Assembly: GCF_007990245.1 (NCBI RefSeq)
Contig: NZ_BJWG01000016.1
Coordinates: 1-64,000 of the forward strand
Direction of reading: 5' to 3'
Length of the DNA: 64,000 nt
Source: Cellulomonas composti
Lineage (GTDB): Bacteria > Actinomycetota > Actinomycetes > Actinomycetales > Cellulomonadaceae
The notes under the pieces were generated by a model. It ran no database searches. It had not been told where the DNA came from and saw only the letters and a program-made list of their open reading frames with translations. How positions within the stretch are numbered: the stretch's first letter is position 1; each line of letters opens with the position of its first letter. Made by a program: the position numbers and the translations under genes. This document shows positions 15,491 to 30,471 of this stretch, piece after piece.

Positions 15491-16714
15491 TCAGCGGGGC
15501 TGGGCCTCGCCCAGCAGGTTCTGCACGCGCGAGACACCTTCGACGAGATCGTCGTCGGCCAGGGCGTAGGAGAACCGCAGGAAGCCGCTCGGGCCGAACG
15601 CCTCGCCCGGGACGACCGCCACCTCGACCTCGTCGAGGATGAGCGCCGCGAGCTCGGCCGACGTCGTCGGCGTGACGCCGCGGATCTCACGGCCGAGCAC
15701 GCCCTCGACGCTCGGGTACGCGTAGAACGCGCCCTGCGGCACCGGGATCTGCACGCCGTCGATCGCGCCCAGCATCTCGACGATCGTGCGACGCCTGCGG
15801 TCGAACGCGAGCTTCATCTCCTCGACCGCCGTCAGGTCGCCGCTCACGGCGGCGAGCGCGGCGCGCTGCGAGACGTTCGCGACGTTGCTCGTCAGGTGGC
15901 TCTGCAGGTTCGTCGCGGCCTTGATGACGTCGGCCGGCCCGATCATCCAGCCCACGCGCCAGCCGGTCATGGCATAGGTCTTGGCGACGCCGTTGAGCAC
16001 GATCGACGTGTCGACGAGCTCGGGCACGACGCGCTGGATCGGCGTGAACACCGCGTGGTCGTAGGTGAGGTGCTCGTAGATCTCGTCGGTGATGACCCAG
16101 ATCCCGTGCTCGAGCGCCCAGCGGCCGATCTCGGCGGTCTGCTCGGGCGAGTACACCGCACCCGTCGGGTTGGACGGCGAGCAGAACAGCAGGGCCTTGG
16201 TGCGCGGCGTGCGGGCCGCCTCGAGCTGCTCGACCGTGACGAGGTAGCCCTGGTCGGCGCCCGCGAACACCTCGACGGGCACGCCCTCCGCGAGGCGGAT
16301 CGCCTCGGGGTAGGTGGTCCAGTACGGCGCGGGCAGCAGCACCTCGTCGCCCGGGTCGACGATCGCCGCGAACGCCTGGAACACGGCCTGCTTGCCGCCG
16401 TTCGTGACGAGCACGTCCTGCGGACGGACCGCGTAGCCCGAGTCGCGCAACGTCTTGGCCGCGATCGCCTCGCGCAGCGCGGGCAGACCGGCGGCCGGCG
16501 TGTACCGGTGGTTGGCCGGATCCTGCGCCGCCGCGACGGCGGCCTCGACGATCGCCGCGGGTGTCGGGAAGTCGGGCTCGCCGGCGCCGAACCCGATCAC
16601 GGGACGGCCGGCGGCCTTGAGGGCCTTGGCCTTCGCGTCGACCGCGAGCGTCGCGGACTCGGCGATCGCGGCGAGACGGGCGGAGACACGGGGGCGGGAG
16701 GTCGGCTGGCTCAC
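15491..16714 (-). CDS. Class I/II PLP-dependent aminotransferase (aspartate aminotransferase-like)
   Basis: A 407-residue fold-type I aminotransferase that likely interconverts aspartate/glutamate and their 2-oxo acids. Motifs: [13 protein letters not shown] near the N-terminus, [37 protein letters not shown] with the PLP-binding Asp and Tyr, and the Schiff-base Lys in [16 protein letters not shown], which matches the AspB subgroup. The C-terminal LRFSYA holds the carboxylate-binding Arg. GTG is the best start; longer readings run into the tRNA-Trp region. Position next to tRNA-Trp/secE is seen in many Actinobacteria. Confidence 0.92.
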
Positions 16715-16799
16715 GGGGTCATAGTGGCAGAGGTCACGCACCGCTCGCCCGTGACTTTCGGTGGGTGGGCTGTGGGGTGGACGGCGGGCGCCGGGCGGG

Positions 16800-16829
16800 T
16801 TCGACCCACGGCCGTCCGTCCCGTACAGT
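16800..16829 (+). promoter_or_regulatory. Probable promoter of tRNA-Trp-secE-nusG
   Basis: TTCGAC (16800-16805) and TACAGT (16824-16829) with an 18-base spacer, 84 bases before tRNA-Trp. Good -10, fair -35. Confidence 0.5.
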
Positions 16830-16912
16830 GGTCCACCGGCGGTTGACGATCGCGATGATGCTCTGCGCCCATGCACGGGTGCCGGGGCGGGTTCGCGAGG
16901 CTTGGCCGTCGT

Positions 16913-16985
16913 AGGGCAGTGGCGCAATTGGTAGCGCAGCGGTCTCCAAAACCGCAGGTTGCAGGTTCGAGTCCTGTCTGCCCTG
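16913..16985 (+). tRNA. tRNA-Trp (anticodon CCA)
   Basis: 73 bases; acceptor AGGGCAG/CTGCCCT, discriminator G, anticodon stem GCGGT/ACCGC with loop CTCCAAA, GGTTCGAGTCC in the T-arm. Its place before secE-nusG is the standard bacterial linkage. Confidence 0.96.
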
Positions 16986-17027
16986 CGCAGGTCCCATCCA
17001 CCGACGAAGACGGCAGGCACACCGAAC

Positions 17028-17318
17028 GTGAGCGAGACAGCAGCCTCCGCGGCGTCCGACGCCGAAGGCTCGGCGGCGCCCGCGTCCGAGCGCAAGAGCG
17101 GCGGCAAGAAGACGCAGGAGCGTCCCGGTCTGTTCGCGCGCATCGCGCTGTTCGTCCGGCAGGTCATCGGCGAGCTGAAGAAGGTCGTCCGGCCGACGCG
17201 TTCGGACCTGATCACCTACACGAGCGTCGTGCTCGTCTTCGTCGCCGTGGTGATGGCCTTCGTCACCGTGGTCGACCTCGGGATCGGCAAGCTCACCTTC
17301 TGGGTGTTCGGAGGCTGA
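17028..17318 (+). CDS. secE: Preprotein translocase subunit SecE
   Basis: A 96-residue actinobacterial SecE: an Ala/Ser-rich, charged cytoplasmic N-terminus, the amphipathic helix [20 protein letters not shown] that is diagnostic of SecE, and one transmembrane helix ([20 protein letters not shown]). It clamps the SecY channel. The GTG start gives [11 protein letters not shown]; no better start exists between it and the tRNA. Co-transcribed with nusG. Confidence 0.95.
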
Positions 17319-17392
17319 GCCCGTGGCCGTATCGGCCACCGCACGCGGTCCCTTCGCGGATCGCTCCACCGTCGTAGAAAGCAGGTCCGCAC

Positions 17393-18208
17393 GTGTCGAA
17401 CGAGTCGTCTGAGCCCACGCCGGCCGACGTCGAGCTCGAGGAGACCCTCGAGTCCGTCGAGTCCGTCGAGGCGTCCACCGACGAGCCGGCCGCTGACGAG
17501 TCGGCTGTCGACGAGCCTGCCGGAGACGAGCCTGCCGGAGACGACGCGGACGCTGTCGAGTCCACGCCCGACGAGTCCACGCCCGACGAGGACGAGGACG
17601 ACCTGGACGAGGACCCGGTCGTGGCGTACAAGTCGAAGCTGCGTAGCCTCCCGGGCGAGTGGTACGTCATCCACTCGTACGCCGGCTACGAGAACCGCGT
17701 GAAGGCGAACCTCGAGAACCGCACGCAGAGCCTCAACATGGAGGACTTCATCTACCAGGTGGAGGTCCCCATGGAGGAGGTCGTCGAGATCAAGAACGCG
17801 CAGCGCAAGGTCGTCAAGCGCGTGCGCATCCCCGGCTACGTCCTGGTCCGCATGGACCTGACCGACGAGTCGTGGGGCGCGGTCCGGCACACGCCGGGCG
17901 TCACCGGCTTCGTCGGGCACACGCACCAGCCCGTGCCGCTGACGCTCGACGAGGTGTTCTCGATGCTGGCCCCGACGTTCGAGGTCAAGTCCGCCTCGGC
18001 CCCGGCCGCCTCGGCCCGCGCCGCGAACAAGATCGAGGTCGACTTCACGGTCGGCGAGTCGGTCACCGTCACCGACGGGCCGTTCGACACGCTGCCCGCG
18101 ACGATCTCCGAGATCAACGCCGAGAACCAGAAGCTCAAGGTTCTCGTCTCCATCTTCGGCCGGGAGACCCCGGTCGAGCTCTCGTTCAGCCAGGTCGCCA
18201 AGATCTGA
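17393..18208 (+). CDS. nusG: Transcription termination/antitermination factor NusG
   Basis: A 271-residue NusG. The NGN domain ([20 protein letters not shown] ... [11 protein letters not shown]) starts near residue 85, and the KOW domain ([44 protein letters not shown]) ends the protein. The first 80 residues are an acidic, low-complexity extension with near-repeats [11 protein letters not shown] and [11 protein letters not shown], usual for actinobacterial NusG though variable in length. Binds RNA polymerase and couples transcription to Rho or ribosomes. GTG start after a weak AAGCAGG site. Confidence 0.96.
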
Positions 18209-18299
18209 CCGGACGGGGACGGTCCCGCTGCGGCGGGGCGTCCGTGCAACCGGGTCATCGCCCACGGCGTAGGCCCACGAACAGGAAAGGGAAGGCGTC

Positions 18300-18731
18300 A
18301 TGCCCCCCAAGAAGAAGGTCACCGGCCTGATCAAGCTCCAGATCAAGGCCGGCGCGGCTACCCCCGCCCCGCCGATCGGCCCCGCGCTCGGTCAGCACGG
18401 CGTCAACATCATGGAGTTCTGCAAGGCGTACAACGCGGCCACCGAGGCGCAGCGTGGCGACGTCATCCCCGTCGAGATCACGGTGTACGAGGACCGCTCG
18501 TTCACCTTCATCACGAAGACGCCGCCGGCCGCCGAGCTCATCAAGAAGGCTGCGGGCGTGGCCAAGGGTTCGCCCACGCCGCACACGGTGAAGGTCGCGA
18601 CGCTGACCCGCGAGCAGGTGCGCGACATCGCGGCCACCAAGCTCGTGGACCTCAACGCGAACGACCTCGAGGCCGCCGAGAAGATCATCGCCGGCACCGC
18701 CCGGTCGATGGGCATCAAGGTCGCCGACTGA
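18300..18731 (+). CDS. rplK: 50S ribosomal protein L11
   Basis: A 143-residue L11 opening [37 protein letters not shown], the conserved N-terminal domain that binds release factors and stringent factor; the C-terminal domain binds 23S rRNA at the GTPase centre. Preceded by AGGAAAGGGAAGG. Thiostrepton-contact prolines are present. Operon with rplA. Confidence 0.98.
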
Positions 18732-18837
18732 CCTGTCGGTCGGACGCACCACCACGCATCACCCTCACGCAACACCCAGTGGCAGGGCCCGTGTGCGGCC
18801 CGTGAAGACCACGACTGCTCACAAGGAGAACAGGCAG

Positions 18838-19554
18838 ATGGCGAAGCACAGCAAGGCGTACCGCGCTGCGGTCGAGAAGATCGAGGCCGGCAAGGTCTAC
18901 AGCCCGCTCGAGGCCGTGCGCCTCGCGCAGGCGACGTCCACGACGAAGTACGACGCGACCGTCGAGGTGGCGTTCCGCCTCGGCGTCGACCCGCGCAAGG
19001 CCGACCAGATGGTCCGTGGCACGGTCAACCTGCCGAACGGCACCGGCAAGACCGCGCGCGTCATCGTCTTCGCGACCGGTGAGCGTGCCGAGCAGGCCCG
19101 CGCCGCCGGCGCCGACGAGGTCGGTGGCGACGAGCTGATCGAGAAGGTGGCCGCCGGCTACACCGACTTCGACTCGGCCGTCGCGACCCCGGACCTCATG
19201 GGCAAGGTCGGTCGACTCGGCAAGGTCCTGGGCCCGCGCGGCCTCATGCCGAACCCGAAGACCGGCACCGTGACGATGGACGTGGCCAAGGCCGTGTCCG
19301 ACATCAAGGGCGGCAAGATCGAGTTCCGGGTCGACCGCCACGCGAACCTGCACTTCATCATCGGCAAGACCTCGTTCACCGAGGTCCAGCTGGTGGAGAA
19401 CTACGCCGCCGCGCTCGACGAGATCCTGCGTCTGAAGCCGTCCGCCTCGAAGGGCCGCTACATCACGAAGGCGACCGTCTCGACGACGAACGGCCCCGGC
19501 ATCCTGCTCGACCAGAACAAGACCCGGAACCTGACCTCCGACGACGACGCCTGA
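18838..19554 (+). CDS. rplA: 50S ribosomal protein L1
   Basis: A 238-residue L1 with the two-domain signature [25 protein letters not shown], core of the L1 stalk that moves E-site tRNA. L1 commonly represses its own operon by binding the mRNA leader. Start ATG has AAGGAG 8 bases upstream. A 16-bp hairpin terminator follows. Confidence 0.98.
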
Positions 19555-19574
19555 GCGTCGCCCGCCGCGAGCTG

Positions 19575-19610
19575 ACGAAGGCCCGAACCCCCGAGGGTTC
19601 GGGCCTTCGT
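19575..19610. terminator. Bidirectional terminator between rplA and the protease gene
   Basis: A perfect 16-bp stem (19575-19590 with 19595-19610) with loop CCGA sits between convergent genes and can end both transcripts. Confidence 0.85.
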
Positions 19611-19643
19611 CGTACCCGGCCGGTGCCGGGCCACGGGTTCGGG

Positions 19644-21386
19644 TCAGTCGTCGCCCGACGCCGTGCCCGGGGTTCCCTGCGCCCGGGCGGCCGACCGGTA
19701 CGCGTCTCGGTATGCGTCGCGGTAGGCCGCGGCGTAGGCCGCACGGAACCCCGCGAGCTGCCCGGCGCGGTAGGCCGCGGCGTAGGCCGCACGCGCCCGG
19801 TACTGCGCCTGCGCCTGGGCGCGAGCGCGCGCCGCGCGCGCCTGGACCTGGGCGCGCGCCTGCGTCTGCGCGCGGGCGGCGGCCTGGCTGTACGCCCGGT
19901 AGGCGGCCTCGGTGAACGGCTCGGTGAAGGGCTCCGTGAACGGCTCGGTGAACGGCTCCGTGAACGGGTCGGACGTCACCGCCTCCGTGAAGGGCTCCGT
20001 GAACGGCTCGGTGAAGGGTTCCGTGAACGGCTCCGTGAAGGGCTCGGTGAACGGGTTCGTCGCGAGCGCCTCGGTGAACGGCTCGGTGAACGGTTCGGTG
20101 AACGGCTCGGTGAACGGTTCCGTGAACGGCTCGGTGAAGGGTTCCGTGAACGGCTGGGCGGACGACTGGGGCGTGGACGGGTCGGACACGAGGGCCTCCG
20201 AGGTCGGTGTCAGGCGGTTGACGGGAGAAGCGGCCGTCGCCCCGGGCCGGTCCGACGTCGAGCGGGGCGCCCCCTGCGCGTCCCGCTCGATCGAGGACCG
20301 GCCCGACGGGGCCGAGGTACCGCGCGCGCTCGGGTGAGCGCGGTCCTGGGGAGCCGGGATCACCGACACGCCGAGCGTGTCGAGGACCACGGCGATGGGG
20401 TTGGCGACGGAGAAGCTTCCGTCGTCCTCGCCGGCCCACAGCAGGCCGACGACGTGCCCGGCGTCGTCGACGATCGCGGAACCGGAGTCACCGCCCGACG
20501 AGAACCGTTCGTGGTCCGGGGCGGGTTCGACACGGACCTGGTCACGCAGCGTGCGCCAGCCGACGCCGGGACCGAAGTCGACCGACGTCGTGTAGTCGGT
20601 GGACACGACCGTGCCGACGGTGACGCCCGTCGTGCGACCGGACTTGCGCACGGTCGCGCCGACCTGCGCGGGCCGGGCGCCGGCGATCGGCCCGATGCCG
20701 ACGACCCACGGGAGCCACGGCGTGCCCGGGGCGAGCTCGACCACCGCGGCGTCGATCCGGTCCGTGAGCGTGCCCCGCACGAGCGCGGCGACACGGTCGC
20801 GGCGCGGCTCGCCGTCGTCGGCGAGGCCCGGCTGGATCCAGGTGCTGCCGGGGTCCTCGAGACCGTCGCCGGCAGCGACGTGCCAGTTGGTGAGCCCGAG
20901 CACGAGCCCGGTGTGCCGCTCGCTGACGAGCACGCCGAGCGTGCCGTTGACGGCGCGCAGCTGGGCCTGACCCCCCACCGGCACGGTGACCGGGCTCGCA
21001 GGCCCGAGGCTGAGCCCGCCCGCGAGCGGTCGGACCCGCGAGCGCAGCAGGGCGACGGCAGGTGCGTCCGACTGCTCGCCGGGCTGCTCGCCCCAGTGAC
21101 CGGGGGCGGACTGCGTGAGTGAGAGCGGGGAGACACGGTGCTCGACGACGTCGGTGGGGACGCCGTCGATCTCGGCCGGGATGCGCTCGTCGTCGGACAC
21201 CTCGTCGGACGCACGCTTGCGCTCGACGTGGACGACGATCGCCTGCCGCCCGGTGGGGGACCCGTCCGACCACTTCTCTGCGATGTCGATCCCGATCACG
21301 CCCGTGCGGGCGAGGAGCGCGTCCTCGACGCGACGCTTGGTGGGGCGGATCAGGTCGCGGTCGGTCGCGTCGTCCTGCGCGGTCAT
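19644..21386 (-). CDS. Trypsin-like serine protease with PFTE repeats and Ala/Arg/Tyr-rich tail
   Basis: A 580-residue protein with no signal peptide or membrane helix, so probably cytoplasmic. Residues about 110-340 form a chymotrypsin-fold domain with a complete triad: H169 in LTNWHVAAG, D212 in RIDAAVVEL, S301 in SSGGDSGSAIVD. Residues 1-100 are a small domain (VHVERKRASDEV) seen with such proteases. After a disordered link come 18 PFTE units in blocks of 7, 6 and 5 split by ALATN and AVTSD (about 411-493), then an 80-residue helical Ala/Arg/Tyr/Gln tail (RAYSQAAARAQTQARAQ). ATG has GAGGAG upstream. It is divergent from a sigma factor/CHAT operon. Substrate unknown; the repeat could be a scaffold or autoprocessing site. 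Confidence 0.85.
   Translation of the reverse strand: MTAQDDATDRDLIRPTKRRVEDALLARTGVIGIDIAEKWSDGSPTGRQAIVVHVERKRASDEVSDDERIPAEIDGVPTDVVEHRVSPLSLTQSAPGHWGEQPGEQSDAPAVALLRSRVRPLAGGLSLGPASPVTVPVGGQAQLRAVNGTLGVLVSERHTGLVLGLTNWHVAAGDGLEDPGSTWIQPGLADDGEPRRDRVAALVRGTLTDRIDAAVVELAPGTPWLPWVVGIGPIAGARPAQVGATVRKSGRTTGVTVGTVVSTDYTTSVDFGPGVGWRTLRDQVRVEPAPDHERFSSGGDSGSAIVDDAGHVVGLLWAGEDDGSFSVANPIAVVLDTLGVSVIPAPQDRAHPSARGTSAPSGRSSIERDAQGAPRSTSDRPGATAASPVNRLTPTSEALVSDPSTPQSSAQPFTEPFTEPFTEPFTEPFTEPFTEPFTEALATNPFTEPFTEPFTEPFTEPFTEPFTEAVTSDPFTEPFTEPFTEPFTEPFTEAAYRAYSQAAARAQTQARAQVQARAARARAQAQAQYRARAAYAAAYRAGQLAGFRAAYAAAYRDAYRDAYRSAARAQGTPGTASGDD
19909..20154 (-). repeat. 18-copy 12-bp coding repeat (PFTE) in three blocks
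   Basis: Blocks of 5, 6 and 7 units (low to high coordinate) are separated by two 15-base spacers. Unit on the coding strand is CCG TTC ACC GAG; the units differ only at third codon positions (CCG/CCC, ACC/ACG, GAG/GAA), so the peptide is invariant. Confidence 0.95.
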
Positions 21387-21561
21387 GTCGCGTGACTCCT
21401 CTCGGCTGGGCGCTGGTCAGGAGCGGCACGCCCCGGACCAGATACATCGCGGACGAAATCGCCCGCACGGGTGAATCATGGCGCTCGTCGTCGGACCGAG
21501 GTATCAGGCGCCCCCGGCCGCGCTCCTGACGCACGAACCCCGCGGGGAGGCGCGCGTCTCC

Positions 21562-21591
21562 TTGTCCGGGAAGTCCGGGCCGTCCTAGTGT
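21562..21591 (+). promoter_or_regulatory. Probable promoter of the sigma factor-CHAT operon
   Basis: TTGTCC (21562-21567) and TAGTGT (21586-21591) are 18 bases apart, 48 bases before the sigma start codon. The 253-base divergent region to the protease gene shows no other strong element on the plus strand. Confidence 0.5.
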
Positions 21592-21639
21592 GTCGAGGCA
21601 CGGTCGCCCGCCGAGGCCAGTCGAGTGAGGGGCCAGATG

Positions 21640-22269
21640 ATGAGTGACGACCTGGTGGAGCCGGCTGAGGCCGCGCTCCGCGACCAGGGGGAGGGGCTCG
21701 CCGACCAGGCGGCCCGAGCTGTCGTCGCCTACCGGGCGGGCGACCGCGAGCCGATGGCGGCGCTCGTGCAGGTCATGACGCCGCTGCTGTGGCACACCGT
21801 GCGCGCCCAGGGCGCGGACTCCGAGCTCGCGCAGGACATCGTGCAGAATGTCTGGCTGACCCTCGTGCGGGACATCGAGACGATCCGCGACCCGCACGCG
21901 ACTCTCCAGTGGGCGCTCGTCACCGCGAAGCGCGCGGCGTGGCGGGCCGTGCGACGCTCACGAGAGGAGGCCGCCCGCAGCGACTCCGACGAGAACGCGA
22001 CGCAATGGCTCACCACCTCGGCCGACGAGCTGCCGGATGCGGTGGCCGTCCGCGACGAGCGCGACCAGGCGCTGTGGCGGCACGTCGCCGCTCTGCCCGA
22101 CCGCTGCCGCCGGTTGCTGGGGCTCGTCGCCCTGGTCGACCGGCCCGACTACTCGATCGTCTCCCAGGCGCTCGGCATGCCCGTCGGGAGCATCGGCCCG
22201 ACACGCGGCCGCTGCCTCGCGAAGCTGCGGCTCGCGCTCACCTCGGACCCCACCTGGAGCCTGTCATGA
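21640..22269 (+). CDS. ECF-like RNA polymerase sigma factor
   Basis: A 209-residue sigma-70-family protein. Region 2 is recognisable (LLWHTVRAQGADSELAQDIVQNVWLTLVRDIETI ... LQWALVTAKRAAWRAVRRSRE), and region 4 as a C-terminal helix-turn-helix (LPDRCRRLLGLVALVDRPDYSIVSQALGMPVGSIGPTRGRCLAKLR). GAGGGG is 7 bases before the chosen ATG; ATG 21637 and GTG 21625 are alternatives. Its stop overlaps the next ATG. This class is commonly found with TPR-CHAT proteins in Actinobacteria. Target promoters unknown; likely the cassette itself. Confidence 0.88.
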   Translation: MSDDLVEPAEAALRDQGEGLADQAARAVVAYRAGDREPMAALVQVMTPLLWHTVRAQGADSELAQDIVQNVWLTLVRDIETIRDPHATLQWALVTAKRAAWRAVRRSREEAARSDSDENATQWLTTSADELPDAVAVRDERDQALWRHVAALPDRCRRLLGLVALVDRPDYSIVSQALGMPVGSIGPTRGRCLAKLRLALTSDPTWSLS

Positions 22270-22769
22270 CCCCCGACGACACGACCCTCACGCTCGTCGC
22301 CAACGGCGCGGTCGACCAGCTGGACTTCGGCATCCTCGATCGGCTCGCGGCTCTCGTCGACGTGCACGACCCGGTCCCGGCCGGACTGGTCGACCGCATC
22401 GGCATGGCGCTGACGATCGAGGCGATGCACGCCGAGGTCGCCGAGCTGCACCTCGTCGGGGAGTCCGCGCTCGCGGTACGCAAGGACGAGGCGAGCATCG
22501 AGGCGGGAACGATCACGTTCACGACCGATGTGCTCACCGTGATGATCTCCGTGCACCCGGAGGGCGGCCGGGTCCGCGTCGACGGCTGGGCGGCGCCGGC
22601 CGGCGTGCTGCAGGTCGAGCTGCACCAGGACGCCGACGTGTCGGTCACGACGTCCGACGAGGACGGCCGGTTCTCGTTCGCCGACGTCGAGAGGGGGCCC
22701 GCGCGGCTGGTGCTGCGCCGGCCGAGCGACCCGACGGTGCCGGTGGTGACCCCGCAGGTCGAGCTCTAG
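22266..22769 (+). CDS. Small protein between sigma factor and CHAT gene; carboxypeptidase-regulatory-like
   Basis: A 167-residue protein with no clear family. The first 75 residues are helical and include LAALVDVHDPVPAGLVDRIGMAL, a pattern seen in proteins partnering such sigma factors; residues 85-167 are predicted beta (TDVLTVMISVHPEGGRVRVDGWAAPAGVLQVEL, then SDEDGRFSFADVERGPARLVLRR), resembling a carboxypeptidase-regulatory-like Ig sandwich. ATG overlaps the sigma stop (ATGA), so expression is coupled. A regulator of the sigma factor, or an adaptor to the CHAT protein, are the two options; neither is shown by motif. Confidence 0.75.
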   Translation: MTPDDTTLTLVANGAVDQLDFGILDRLAALVDVHDPVPAGLVDRIGMALTIEAMHAEVAELHLVGESALAVRKDEASIEAGTITFTTDVLTVMISVHPEGGRVRVDGWAAPAGVLQVELHQDADVSVTTSDEDGRFSFADVERGPARLVLRRPSDPTVPVVTPQVEL

Positions 22770-22775
22770 CACTCG

Positions 22776-25403
22776 ATGCGGTCCGACGAGGAGGCCGGCG
22801 CGCGCTTCGACAAGCGGGTGGACGACGTGGGCGCGAAGGTCGCGACCGCCGAGTCGGACAACGCCGAGGGACACCCGGGTCTGGCGCGACGGCGCCTCGT
22901 CGCAGCGATCGCGGAGCTCGACGCGCTCGCGCGCAACGGCCCGGCCGAACCTCGTCTGACGAAGATCCGTGCGCGCGCGCTCATGGAGCTCGCGAAGAGC
23001 GAGTTCGAGACGCGGGCCGGGCCCGAGCCCGCGCTCGCGCGGCTGGACGAGATGGTCGAGGCCGGTGCGGCGCGCGACTGGCGAGGGCTCGTACCCGCTC
23101 TCGCCGGGGTGCGCGGCCTGCTCGCGCTGCGGGCCGGTCGCCACGACGAGGCGCTCGAGCACCTCGACGCCGCTGTCGCGGCGATCGACCTGGCCGACCC
23201 GGTCGACGGCTGCCGGGCGCTGCTCAACCGCGGCACGCTGCACAGCGAGCGCAGGGCGGTCGGCCCCGCGCGCGCCGACTACGAGGAGTGCGCGCGCCGC
23301 GCACGTGAGCAGGGTTTCGACCTGCTGGTGTTCAAGGCCGAGCACAACCTCGGCTACGTCCTGTTCCGCGCCGGGCAGCTGCCCCGCGCGCTCGAGAGCA
23401 TGGCAACGGCGGCCCGCAGCCTGCCGGGCCCGCCGCGGCCCACCGCGCTACGTGACCGCAGCGAGGTGCTGCTCGAGGCGGGGCTGGTGGGCGTCGCCGA
23501 CGAGACGCTCGCCGAGGCCGCGCGGATCTTCGCGGCCGAGCACCTGCCGCGCGACGTCGCCGAGTGCGAGCTGGTGCGTGCGGAGTGCGCGCTGCTGCGC
23601 GGCGACCCGCAGGCCGGACGTGACCTGGCCGAGGCGGCCCGGCGCAGGTTCCGGCGCCGCGGCGACGAGTCCTGGGTGGTGCGGGCGGCCCTGCTCGCGC
23701 TCCAGGCCGACGGGGCGATCCTCGCGGCCGCCGAACCCTCCGAGCAGGCCGACGCCGCCTGGGCGGCGCTCGCCCGGCGGGCCGCCGAGGTCGAAGGGCT
23801 GTGCCGGCGGACGGGCCGGCCGACGTGGCAGCTCACGGCGCGGTACCTGGGCATCGAGGCAGATCTCGCGCGCGGCGCCACGGCCGACCCGGCGGCCGTG
23901 CTCGACGCGCTCGGCCCGGTCGCCGGCGACGACCCGCTCTCGGTGCGGCTCTACGGCAGTCGCATCCGGGCGCTGCTCGCGATGGCCGCCGGGGAACCGG
24001 CACGTGCGGCGTTCCACGTGCGCGCCGGCCAGCACGACCTGGGGCTGCACCGGGCGCGGTTCGGCTCGCTCGACCTGCGCACCGCCGGCGCGGTGCACGG
24101 GACGGCCCTGGCAGCCCTCGACCTCGAGCTCTCGCTCGCCGAGCACGACCCCGGTGCGGCGCTCGAGGGCTTCGAGCGGGCGCGCGCGGTCGTCGGCGGC
24201 AACCCCCGGGTGACGCCTCCGAGCGACCCGCACACCGCCGACCTGCTCGCGCAGCTGCGCCGACTCACCGAGGGCAGCCGCTCGATCACGGCGAGGCCCG
24301 CCGCGGACCCCGAGCGCGTCCGGCTGTTCGCCGAGGCGGCGCGGCTCAAGCAGGAGATCCTCGCGCAGTCGTGGCACGAGTCGGGCCGGGGTGGCGGCCC
24401 GGGCACCGAGCGCACGGAGTCCGCGGCCGAGGTGGTCGAGCGCCTCGCCGGGAGGTCGGGTGCCGTGCTGCTCGACGTGCTCGAGTACCGCGGCGAGCTG
24501 GTCGCCGTGCGGGTGGACGGCGACGGCGCGCGCCTGGTGCGCCTGGGGGAGTCGGCAACGGTCTCCGAGCAGGTCCGCCGCGTGCACGCCGACCTCGAGG
24601 TGCTCGCCAACCCGCTCGTGCCCGACGAGCTCCACACGGTTGCGCAGCGCTCGCTCGACGCGACGCTCGCGCGCCTGGACGCGCGGTTCGTCGACGTGCT
24701 CGACGACCCGGGCGAGCTCGTCGTCGTCGCGGGCCGGTGGCTGGGCGTGCTGCCGTGGGCGCTGCTCGCCTCGCGGACCGGCCGCGCGACGCTCGTCGCG
24801 CCGTCGGTGCACCACTGGATGCGGTACGCGGGTACGGCGGTGACGTCGGGCCGGGTGACCGCGGCGGCGGGACCGGGTCTGCGCCACGCCGACGAGGAGG
24901 CCGTCGAGGTGGCCGCGAGGTGGCCGGGCGCGAAGCCGCTGCTGGGTCCGGACGCCTCGGTCGCGGCCCTGGTCGACGCGTTCCGCCGGCCCGGCGTGGT
25001 GCACCTCGCGGCGCACGGCCGCCACGAGCCCGACAACCCGCTGTTCTCGTCGGTCCGGCTGGCCGACGGTCCGCTGTTCGCGCACGAGCTCGACGCGGGA
25101 ACGGGGGACCCGCCCGAGCTCGTCCTGCTGTCCTCCTGCGAGGTGGGGCGGTCCTCGATACGCGCGGGCGGCGAGGCGTTGGGGCTGGCCAGCGTGCTGC
25201 TGCGCACGGGGGTCGCGTGCGTGGTGGCCGCGCTCGCACCCTTGTCCGACGAGACCGCGCTGCGCGTGATGTCGGCGGTCCACACCGACCTGCGGCAGGG
25301 CGTACCGGTCGCGCAGGCGGTCGCTGCGGCGTGCGCGCGCGTGGGTGCCGAGACGGGGACCGCGGTCCCGCTGGTGTGCCTGGGTGCGCCGGTGGGGGTG
25401 TGA
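22776..25403 (+). CDS. TPR-repeat CHAT-domain (caspase-like) protein
   Basis: An 875-residue protein. Residues about 20-480 are helical TPR-like repeats (HDEALEHLDAAVAAIDLADPVDGCRALLNRG, GYVLFRAGQLPRALESMATAARSL). Residues about 590-875 are a CHAT cysteine-peptidase domain with the dyad His747 in VHLAAHGRHE and Cys788 in LLSSCEVG, and the family segment GEALGLASVLLRTGVACVVAALAPLSDETA. Caspase-HetF-family peptidases of this kind act as proteolytic effectors in several bacterial systems. No signal peptide. ATG lies six bases after the previous stop in the same operon. A role in cleaving the protease product or another target is a hypothesis. Confidence 0.88.
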   Translation: MRSDEEAGARFDKRVDDVGAKVATAESDNAEGHPGLARRRLVAAIAELDALARNGPAEPRLTKIRARALMELAKSEFETRAGPEPALARLDEMVEAGAARDWRGLVPALAGVRGLLALRAGRHDEALEHLDAAVAAIDLADPVDGCRALLNRGTLHSERRAVGPARADYEECARRAREQGFDLLVFKAEHNLGYVLFRAGQLPRALESMATAARSLPGPPRPTALRDRSEVLLEAGLVGVADETLAEAARIFAAEHLPRDVAECELVRAECALLRGDPQAGRDLAEAARRRFRRRGDESWVVRAALLALQADGAILAAAEPSEQADAAWAALARRAAEVEGLCRRTGRPTWQLTARYLGIEADLARGATADPAAVLDALGPVAGDDPLSVRLYGSRIRALLAMAAGEPARAAFHVRAGQHDLGLHRARFGSLDLRTAGAVHGTALAALDLELSLAEHDPGAALEGFERARAVVGGNPRVTPPSDPHTADLLAQLRRLTEGSRSITARPAADPERVRLFAEAARLKQEILAQSWHESGRGGGPGTERTESAAEVVERLAGRSGAVLLDVLEYRGELVAVRVDGDGARLVRLGESATVSEQVRRVHADLEVLANPLVPDELHTVAQRSLDATLARLDARFVDVLDDPGELVVVAGRWLGVLPWALLASRTGRATLVAPSVHHWMRYAGTAVTSGRVTAAAGPGLRHADEEAVEVAARWPGAKPLLGPDASVAALVDAFRRPGVVHLAAHGRHEPDNPLFSSVRLADGPLFAHELDAGTGDPPELVLLSSCEVGRSSIRAGGEALGLASVLLRTGVACVVAALAPLSDETALRVMSAVHTDLRQGVPVAQAVAAACARVGAETGTAVPLVCLGAPVGV

Positions 25404-25429
25404 ACGCGGGCGACCGGGCCGGAGGTGAT

Positions 25430-25458
25430 TTGGCCGTGCGCGGGTGCTCGTCTAGTCT
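25430..25458 (+). promoter_or_regulatory. Promoter of rplJL
   Basis: TTGGCC (25430-25435), 17-base spacer, TAGTCT (25453-25458). Good match and spacing, 200 bases before rplJ, leaving a long leader. Confidence 0.7.
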
Positions 25459-25465
25459 GTACCCG

Positions 25466-25659
25466 CCCAAGACCGCCGGTCGTCGGTCCGCTCGTCGGAC
25501 CAACCGAAGTCCCGCAGCAACGCGGAGGCCAGCGCAGGTGAAGAGTTCAGCATGAGGTCCGGCTGGTCCGGTCCGCCTGTCGAGCCCCGCGCCTGCGCGG
25601 GGCTCTTGTCGTTCCTGGGGGCGTCGGACGCGACCGGCACCACCACCGGAAGGATTGCC
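25466..25659 (+). promoter_or_regulatory. rplJ (L10) mRNA leader
   Basis: The roughly 190-base untranslated leader fits the L10 leader by position and structure: several short pairing elements (GGTCCGCTCGTCGGACC-like) and a GC-rich hairpin near the end. In other bacteria L10-L12 binds such a leader and represses rplJL. No covariance search was possible, so the boundaries are approximate. Confidence 0.6.
25582..25605 (+). terminator. Attenuator-like hairpin in rplJ leader
   Basis: A 10-bp stem (25582-25591 with 25596-25605), 4-base loop, followed by TTGTCGTT. It could attenuate read-through into rplJ. Confidence 0.55.
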
Positions 25660-26190
25660 ATGGCGAGGCCGGACAAGGCAGCCGCCGTCGCGGAGCTCAC
25701 GGACCTGTTCCGTGAGTCGAACGCGGCCGTGCTGACCGAGTACCGCGGGCTCACCGTCGCCCAGCTCAAGAAGCTGCGCGTGGCGCTGCGCGGTAACGCT
25801 ACCTACGCCGTGGTGAAGAACACGCTGACCGCGATCGCGGCCAAGGAAGCCGGCCTGACGGGCCTCGACGACGAGCTTGCGGGCCCGTCGGCGATCGCCT
25901 TCGTCACCGGCGACCCGGTCGAGGCCGCAAAGGGTCTGCGTGACTTCGCCAAGGCGAACCCCGCACTGGTCATCAAGGGTGGTGTCCTCGACGGACGCGC
26001 CCTGACCGCCGCGGATGTCAACAAGCTCGCGGACCTCGAGTCCCGTGAGGTCCTGCTGGCCAAGGCGGCCGGCGCGATGAAGGCCAAGCTCTACCAGGCT
26101 GCGTACGTCTTCACCGCGAACACCGCCCAGGCCGCTCGTGTCATCGATGCCCTGCGTCAGAAGCAGGAGTCGGAAGGTGCGGCTGCCTGA
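25660..26190 (+). CDS. rplJ: 50S ribosomal protein L10
   Basis: A 176-residue L10: [21 protein letters not shown]-terminal RNA-binding domain, [19 protein letters not shown], and the C-terminal helix ([22 protein letters not shown]) that binds L7/L12 dimers to form the ribosomal stalk. ATG follows CCGGAAGG. Begins a two-gene operon, separated from rplA by the protease/CHAT cassette. Confidence 0.98.
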
Positions 26191-26286
26191 CCCTGGCCCC
26201 GGTCAGGTTCGGCGCACCGCGCACACCCCCACATCCCGCTTCCGGCGCAGCACGCGTCGCGGAGCACCGTAGAAAGGAACGCCATC

Positions 26287-26676
26287 ATGGCGAAGCTCAG
26301 CACCGAGGAGCTCATCGAGCAGTTCAAGGGTCTGACCCTCATCGAGCTGTCCGAGTTCGTGAAGGCCTTCGAGGAGGTCTTCGAGGTCACCGCCGCCGCG
26401 CCCGTCGCGGTCGCCGCCCCCGCCGCCGGTGGCGGCGCCGCCGAGGCCGTCGTCGAGGACGAGAAGGACTCGTTCGACGTCGTCCTCGAGGCCGCCGGTG
26501 ACAAGAAGATCCAGGTCATCAAGGAGGTCCGCGCGCTCACGAGCCTCGGCCTCAAGGAGGCCAAGGACCTCGTCGACGAGGCCCCCAAGGCCGTCATCGA
26601 GGGTGCGAACAAGGAGACCGCCGAGAAGGCCAAGGCTCAGCTCGAGGCCGCCGGCGCCACCGTCACGCTCAAGTGA
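26287..26676 (+). CDS. rplL: 50S ribosomal protein L7/L12
   Basis: A 129-residue L7/L12: N-terminal dimer helix ([27 protein letters not shown]), Ala/Gly-rich hinge ([11 protein letters not shown]), C-terminal factor-binding domain ([29 protein letters not shown]). Recruits translation GTPases. AGAAAGGA upstream of ATG; strong terminator follows. Confidence 0.98.
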
Positions 26677-26713
26677 TCCCACGTCCGGCCTGACGGCCGG
26701 ACGGGCGCTTCGC

Positions 26714-26750
26714 ACGAAGCCCGCTCCCCACTTCGGGGGGCGGGCTTCGT
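26714..26750 (+). terminator. Terminator after rplL
   Basis: A 16-bp stem including one G-T pair (26714-26729 with 26735-26750), 5-base loop, follows rplL and precedes the rpoB promoter. Confidence 0.8.
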
Positions 26751-26785
26751 CGTGCGCGGGCACCTCGGGCGGCGCGGATGCCGGG

Positions 26786-26815
26786 TTGGACTTCCATCAG
26801 GTGGCGGACTATGCT
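26786..26815 (+). promoter_or_regulatory. Promoter of rpoBC
   Basis: TTGGAC (26786-26791), 18-base spacer, TATGCT (26810-26815): close to the sigma-A consensus. Leaves a leader of about 140 bases before rpoB. Confidence 0.75.
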
Positions 26816-26961
26816 GTCGCTTTGCGCTGGCCTGTGCCCGCAACCTCAGATAACCCGAGCCGACCTTGGCGCTACGTGCGCGCCGAGAGTACGGCTTCGA
26901 GGCAGGGGGTCGCGACTCGCCGGGCTGCGCAGGTGATTTCGACCGCAGGGAAGGACCCCTC

Positions 26962-30471
<3,510 letters not shown>

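Follow-up and report, generated by a model that had tools for sequence, protein, structure and literature searches.

A sigma factor, small protein and TPR-CHAT protein between rplA and rplJ

Within the first 64,000 nucleotides of Cellulomonas composti contig NZ_BJWG01000016.1 (hereafter the window), the ribosomal protein genes rplA (18838..19554, plus strand) and rplJ (25660..26190, plus strand), both identified from their translations and relatives, flank four genes that encode a serine protease, an extracytoplasmic function (ECF)-type sigma factor, a small two-domain protein and a caspase-like TPR-CHAT protein. The trypsin-like (NAL1-like) protease (580 aa; 19644..21386; Trypsin_2 E 3.9e-7) is encoded on the minus strand. 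The sigma factor (209 aa; 21640..22269, with an alternative ATG at 21637), the small protein (167 aa; 22266..22769; characterized by profile and structure prediction) and the TPR-CHAT protein (875 aa; 22776..25403; CHAT E 8.1e-27) follow on the plus strand. An earlier note, made from the letters of this DNA, had described this four-gene set, and all four open reading frames are indeed uninterrupted over these coordinates. The overlapping stops that it reported for the last three genes hold for the sigma factor and small protein, which share an ATGA, but not for the small protein and CHAT, whose stop (22767-22769) and start (22776), respectively, are separated by six bases. It did not mention the array and tail of the protease or the two inverted intergenic motif copies, all described below.

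Domain searches and alignments agree with the note's assignments. The sigma factor scores 48.0 bits against the NCBIfam sigma70-ECF model TIGR02937 (cut-off 42.9) and matches Sigma70_r2 at E 6e-8 (32.8 bits; cut-off 24). The CHAT domain scores 94.8 bits against PF12770 (cut-off 24), and its proposed catalytic residues His747 (codon 25014-25016, plus strand) and Cys788 (25137-25139) are invariant at all 41 family loci described below. The protease triad, H169 (20880-20882, minus strand), D212 (20751-20753) and S301 (20484-20486), is intact and identical in 23/23 aligned relatives including the window copy. This protease contains no cysteines, scores below the gathering thresholds of both NAL1 profiles (Nal1_C 21.3 bits versus 26.1; NAL1_N 15 versus 27) and ends in an R/A/Y/Q-rich tail (19644..19904, minus strand) with AAYRAG-like stretches, where many of its relatives end in an (A)FWAGY-like motif.

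The small protein, a candidate sigma-restraining factor, is predicted to consist of three helices, a low-confidence segment (residues 59-80) and a beta sandwich. It reaches 20.8 bits against CarboxypepD_reg, below the cut-off of 32.3, although 39 of 41 relatives match that family at E <= 0.5 (best 1.4e-5). A profile of the small protein compared with solved structures gave a best match of E 0.99, and a second fold comparison spanned residues 77-167 and thus excluded the N-terminal helices. For the CHAT protein, a single-sequence search of solved structures returned no match at E <= 1, and the family profile reached solved TPR-CHAT chains (8d9f and others, which we take to be Csx29) only at E 0.42 and over the catalytic part.

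The CHAT profile found its closest named relatives in Cellulomonas, with identities of 52-69%. A CHAT search of 200 genomes of the family yielded matches in 140, and 40 loci taken from matches with flanks were combined with the window to give a set of 41. The order sigma factor, small protein, CHAT is kept in 41/41, a recurrence that exceeds what chance would be expected to produce. Downstream, rplJ is visible at all 41 loci; rplA is visible at 35, and in each of these the module lies between the two ribosomal genes. A protease adjoins the module in 40/41: a divergent trypsin at 21 loci and a subtilase between the small protein and CHAT at 19, with neither directly at the module in L048, where a trypsin is seen beyond an inserted cassette on a longer piece (L185). 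The trypsin is thus present at all 22 Cellulomonas-type CHAT loci, 21 on first pieces and the 22nd on the longer one. The gene-neighbourhood search that the note had proposed therefore found co-occurrence to be common, in keeping with its picture of a single regulated proteolytic unit with a dedicated sigma factor. The note had also allowed that the block might be a commonplace, conserved trait of the genus whose role is known; conserved it is, but no tested role for it was found.

Among 347 genomes of the order, 64 have both the small protein and CHAT, 5 the small protein only, 11 CHAT only and 267 neither. The five with only the small protein belong to one genus and have weak partial matches; when the five weakest places are set aside, CHAT lies no more than 6 kb away at 61 of 65 small-protein places, with a median gap of 140 bases. 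Across 396 genomes of the phylum the small protein is found in 29 (E <= 0.001, some matches being weak). Outside the family the module occupies other genome positions, often in the order subtilase, sigma factor, small protein, CHAT. Judged by sequence, the sigma factor, small protein and TPR-CHAT protein are thus a conserved actinobacterial module.

Two metagenome-assembled genomes named as other lineages (L198 and L221) carry the module between rplA and rplJ, and in three such genomes of other actinobacterial lineages (L198, L204 and L221) the module or its CHAT gene lies next to rplJ; use of the ribosomal site may therefore be ancient or may have arisen more than once. Several phylum-level loci, among them L153, L157, L158, L160 and L161, have the sigma factor and small protein but neither a CHAT nor a subtilase match in the piece examined, indicating that the pair can stand alone, where it may have another partner. 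At L159, L163 and L164, CHAT is beside the sigma factor and small protein, and a subtilase with NPAYQG, NPAYQA or NPGYQG arrays is encoded on the opposite strand.

Two kinds of protease and their tandem arrays

The subtilases found with the module keep the triad D262/H326/S542 (L060 numbering) in 42/42 sequences, and the sister-lineage subtilase has both the prodomain and the S8 triad of a subtilisin zymogen. No subtilase is encoded at the window module, and the best subtilase-profile match in this genome is partial and lies on a different contig (E 6.6e-13). A tree built from 52 CHAT rows requires one change between subtilase and trypsin, with the trypsin group at a Shimodaira-Hasegawa-like approximate likelihood ratio test (SH-aLRT) support of 100 (obtained with a quick method). 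The trypsin thus appears to occupy the subtilase's place at the Cellulomonas locus, and the tree fits one switch. The change may have run in either direction, because both proteases may have been present in the ancestor, as they are in L146 and L149, where a trypsin gene (L146:10532-11848; L149:10471-11949) lies beside a subtilase-type module.

Both kinds of protease carry tandem peptide arrays. The window trypsin has a C-terminal (PFTE)n array in three blocks (19905..20159, minus strand) with a longest run of 7 PFTE units, and PFTE arrays occur near the C-terminus in 20 of 21 window-type trypsins, counting the window's own; the remaining copy is cut by a contig end. More distant trypsin relatives that were inspected have different or missing C-terminal ends. 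The subtilase arrays all sit at one place in the protein and are built from HPYTQP, HPYTES, HPFTQS, PFTSH, PYSTPL, GYGEGV, GGYWGGV, PYWDPV, NPHGRT, NPFIET, NPAYQG, HPMYDG and other units. Under a strict test, an array is present in 53 of 85 distinct module-type subtilases. In a modelled subtilase the array (residues 167-224, 58 residues) is predicted to be disordered (predicted local distance difference test score 30-38) and sits between a domain resembling the pro-subtilisin prodomain and residue 232, which aligns with residue 1 of mature subtilisin. In this respect the module subtilase differs from subtilisin zymogens and PCSK9, having a 58-residue array at the prodomain-catalytic junction.

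Comparison of the units within each array revealed a consistent pattern at the DNA level. The seven-unit run of the window is encoded by 4 distinct DNA versions, with a proportion of synonymous differences (pS) of 0.50 and a proportion of nonsynonymous differences (pN) of 0. Mean pS and pN are 0.412 and 0.008 for 57 subtilase arrays (pN 0 in 46) and 0.547 and 0.016 for 24 trypsin arrays (pN 0 in 20). Overall, the observed mean pS of 0.452 compares with a saturated expectation of 0.438, computed for every array from the codon usage of the window, while mean pN is about 0.01. Low-complexity "arrays" (DDDA, GRVA, RRRA, DPGDL and QRRAA) were removed before these final counts; before their removal, pN was below pS in 58/60 subtilase and 26/26 trypsin arrays. 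Synonymous sites are thus saturated while the amino acids are nearly unchanged, which, granting limits of counting that are taken up below, points to strong purifying selection on the exact array unit within each protein. Recent slippage was considered as the source of the identity between units and is ruled out by the saturated synonymous sites.

The core P[FY]T[EQ]P is common to the Cellulomonas trypsin and to subtilases of related lineages (L055, L056 and L196). Its presence in both folds suggests that the motif persisted when the protease changed, either through transfer or through convergence. Elsewhere in the C. composti genome the array has no strong counterpart (the best match there is E 0.001), and within a limited literature and set of search words we found no published description of these arrays.

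A candidate promoter motif

An alignment of the intergenic region between the trypsin and sigma factor genes from 21 loci revealed two facing conserved blocks, which with motif scans define two promoter-like AGGAGC-N16-GATAC elements in the window, one directed toward the sigma operon (21419..21445, plus strand) and one toward the protease gene (21501..21527, minus strand). A conserved block of the 21-sequence alignment, upstream of the sigma factor, contains the housekeeping-like promoter candidate TTGTCC-N18-TAGTGT (21562..21591, plus strand), which we infer to be of the sigmaA type. A relaxed pattern of the AGGAGC-GATAC motif finds 34 sites at 19 of the 21 loci, in both orientations at 15.

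A matrix built on these 34 Cellulomonas sites was applied at a score of at least 13 to intergenic zones that include mutual relatives. In the 21 Cellulomonas zones, which are the training set, it finds the motif toward the sigma factor in 20 and toward the trypsin in 21. In other lineages the motif points toward the module in 15 of 17 subtilase-first zones and away from it in 14; in 69 sigma-first zones the counts are 1 toward and 33 away. The background is 26 matches per 3.4 million strand-bases. In the C. composti genome the exact motif, with spacings of 15-17, occurs at 4 places, two of them at the module and 82 bases apart, and a control pattern occurs at 1. On these counts AGGAGC-N16-GATAC, found also at modules in other lineages, is a candidate target of the sigma factor.

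Two further settings of the motif were noted. An exact copy in the same genome (C2:62533-62559; L249) lies about 225 bases before a gene that, by eye, resembles ClpC. At L197, L199, L202, L212, L215 and L226 the motif (score at least 13) points away from the module toward a gene for a DUF4383-type membrane protein, an assignment made with Pfam for L199 and by similarity or eye for the others; L216 and L239 have this gene with a motif score below 13.

A proposed protease-gated sigma switch and its alternatives

The nearest published gene context is that of ECF54, in which an ECF sigma factor lies beside carboxypeptidase, subtilase and CHAT genes and for which, in the text available to us, proteolytic control without an anti-sigma factor was proposed, the group being known there from gene context only (PMC8999054). 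The window resembles it in gene context through its ECF sigma factor and CHAT protein, so that the combination, which the note had not recognized, was already in part described; what is new relative to the text of PMC8999054 that we consulted is the occurrence of a trypsin instead of a subtilase (the latter present at 19/41 family loci), the tandem arrays and the promoter motif, and that text likewise does not mention lanthionine-type genes. In the type III-E CRISPR system, as far as the portion of the source consulted describes it, the TPR-CHAT protease Csx29 cleaves the sigma inhibitor Csx30 in a relay with CASP-sigma (PMC10028731). That system likewise combines a TPR-CHAT protein, a middle protein and an ECF sigma factor in one locus. 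It differs in that no further convincing gene, including a Cas7-11 effector, lies between rplA and rplJ, the only part of the genome searched for Cas7-11.

Because the nearest tested analogue is the Csx29 relay and the nearest gene context is ECF54, both as partially consulted, we favor, at roughly even chances, a soluble, protease-gated, ECF54-type sigma switch whose client is a repeat-tagged serine protease and which is kept at the rplA-rplJ site within the family. The CHAT protein would sense a signal and would recognize or cleave the array unit sequence-specifically, an action that would activate or release the serine protease. The small protein would hold the sigma factor until proteolysed, and the freed sigma factor would then drive both the protease gene and its own operon from the AGGAGC-N16-GATAC promoters, which would produce a feed-forward burst. 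The computed results cover the identity and conservation of the module, selection on the array and enrichment of the motif; array recognition by CHAT, restraint of sigma by the small protein and use of the promoters are the steps that we infer.

Several observations weigh against this switch. By the strict test 32 of the 85 subtilases lack an array while their modules persist; these include four cut or frame-split pieces and several with only two or imperfect copies, and about half of the 32 are Promicromonospora-like. The arrays are not independent, having been de-duplicated only where the DNA was identical so that close relatives are counted apart, and the runs were trimmed to near-consensus units, which lowers pN. 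The trypsin array lies behind the catalytic domain, so that a role as an activation linker is not directly transferable. Neither the unit nor a look-alike was found in the small protein, sigma factor or CHAT protein of the same locus when own and shuffled units were compared at 76 loci (mean differences -0.5, +0.2 and +0.1, respectively), and the Pfam hits of the small protein include no known anti-sigma family. For the promoter, a control with the spacing lengthened by 5 bp gave toward/away counts of 5/1 of 17, 0/7 of 69 and 4/7 of 21 zones. Outside Cellulomonas, only 1 of the 69 sigma-first loci has the motif facing the sigma operon, which means that autoregulation is not a general feature.

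At thirteen Promicromonospora-like loci (L068, L070, L224, L225, L228, L230, L232, L233, L241-L243, L245 and L246) two CHAT genes are found with array-less subtilases. CHAT duplication and array loss coincide at these loci, which are related to one another.

A more specific and rather tentative proposal is that the tandem array serves as a lineage-specific address tag that couples a replaceable subtilase or trypsin to the TPR-CHAT protein and sigma factor. The tag would be an exact short peptide in at least three copies, rewritten between lineages and nearly letter-perfect within a protein. The same proposal holds that in some lineages the protease tail would be a substrate of lanthionine enzymes made from the same sigma-type promoter, whose thioether cross-links would hold or arm the protease.

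An alternative account of the whole locus is phage defence or abortive conflict, in which CHAT would sense invasion, the serine protease would kill or arrest the cell and the sigma factor would amplify the response. The earlier note had leaned toward such a role, which the two intact proteases and the dedicated sigma factor recommend, as does the fact that the nearest functional analogue is, in the available text, the CRISPR-linked Csx29-Csx30-CASP-sigma relay (PMC10028731). The second, distinct CHAT-sigma-subtilase cassette found between trypsin and sigma factor in one relative (L048/L185, 1867-6534), whose subtilase is array-less, could be read in the same way. The module is also accessory: among the 60 genomes of the genus in the family search, 18 have a close CHAT orthologue (E <= 1e-270), 25 a weaker match only and 17 none. 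Against this, an accessory distribution alone fits stress roles equally, the family loci share a single chromosomal site between ribosomal genes, and none of the four proteins matches a PADLOC-DB 2.0 family at E <= 1. In the portions consulted, PMC8195603, PMC7159879 and PMC10907252 deal with further peptidase conflict systems, of which some include sigma factors, and not with this one. On balance a defence role appears unlikely.

The array could instead be a multi-copy peptide product, with the protease or CHAT freeing repeat peptides as signals or for modification in the manner of ribosomally synthesized and post-translationally modified peptides. Six-residue units make up 50 of 57 subtilase arrays, and in a few other lineages genes of the HopA1 (PF17914), LANC_like (PF05147) and APH phosphotransferase (PF01636) families adjoin the module; in class V lanthipeptide synthesis these types supply the lyase, the cyclase and the kinase, respectively. 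A HopA1-type gene faces away from the module at L130, L200 and L221 (by Pfam) and at L132, L201 and L206 (by similarity); the gene in this position is a trypsin at L146 and L149, an APH-type phosphotransferase at L151 and a DUF4383 gene at L199. Behind the trypsin lie HopA1 in L146 (12744-13625) and APH in L149 (11949-13148), and LANC_like genes are found in L132 and L149 (14116-15471). The trypsins of L146 and L149 end in T/S-x-C repeats with 7 and 9 cysteines and 6 and 9 T or S residues one to six positions before a cysteine, which is suggestive of, and may reflect, a thioether-cross-linked tail in these few lineages. The window differs in having none of these genes and no identified precursor, the T/S-x-C protease tail being a possible target where the enzymes occur, and no HopA1 match was found in its genome. 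Since the array also lies inside an enzyme, most units lack cysteine and no leader was recognized by eye, we regard a peptide product as improbable.

It is similarly doubtful that the array merely clusters the protease, as a multivalent sticker or spacer, without acting as a sequence-specific site. By eye, the units are mostly uncharged and rich in P, G, N and H, usually with one aromatic or bulky residue, and the array is disordered in the subtilase model, as a sticker might be; spacer residues, however, should drift, whereas the unit is preserved between copies despite saturated synonymous sites.

That only the sigma factor, small protein and CHAT cooperate, with the trypsin a bystander, is very improbable. 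In favour of this reading, the trypsin is encoded on the other strand and relatives of its domain are scarce, which also counts against the switch: at E <= 1e-20 a search of 396 genomes of the phylum gave just 10, namely the genome of the query, two with 46-50% identity that include the window's genome, and seven with 32-39%. Among these 10, only the window's genome and G759 were seen to have it beside the module, and in G558 it lies on a different contig from the small protein. Against this reading, the trypsin is found at every Cellulomonas-type CHAT locus, follows one switch on the CHAT tree with support of 100, is faced by the AGGAGC-N16-GATAC motif and adjoins the subtilase-type module in L146 and L149.

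Returning to the protease-gated switch, with the array, partner proteases and candidate promoter in hand, four proteins and short peptides would suffice for a direct test of the ECF54 mechanism. Should the array prove to be a CHAT substrate, the natural repeats would serve as ready-made reagents to probe the specificity of many bacterial caspase-like proteases and would show how a TPR-CHAT/sigma relay operates outside CRISPR. Selection within arrays in two unrelated protease folds is itself unusual evidence for a functional short linear motif.

An Rfam scan of positions 16500-28000 found no element besides a tRNA, and the window has four tRNA genes, those for Tyr (754-837), Thr (1831-1904), Met (1955-2030) and Trp (16913-16986).
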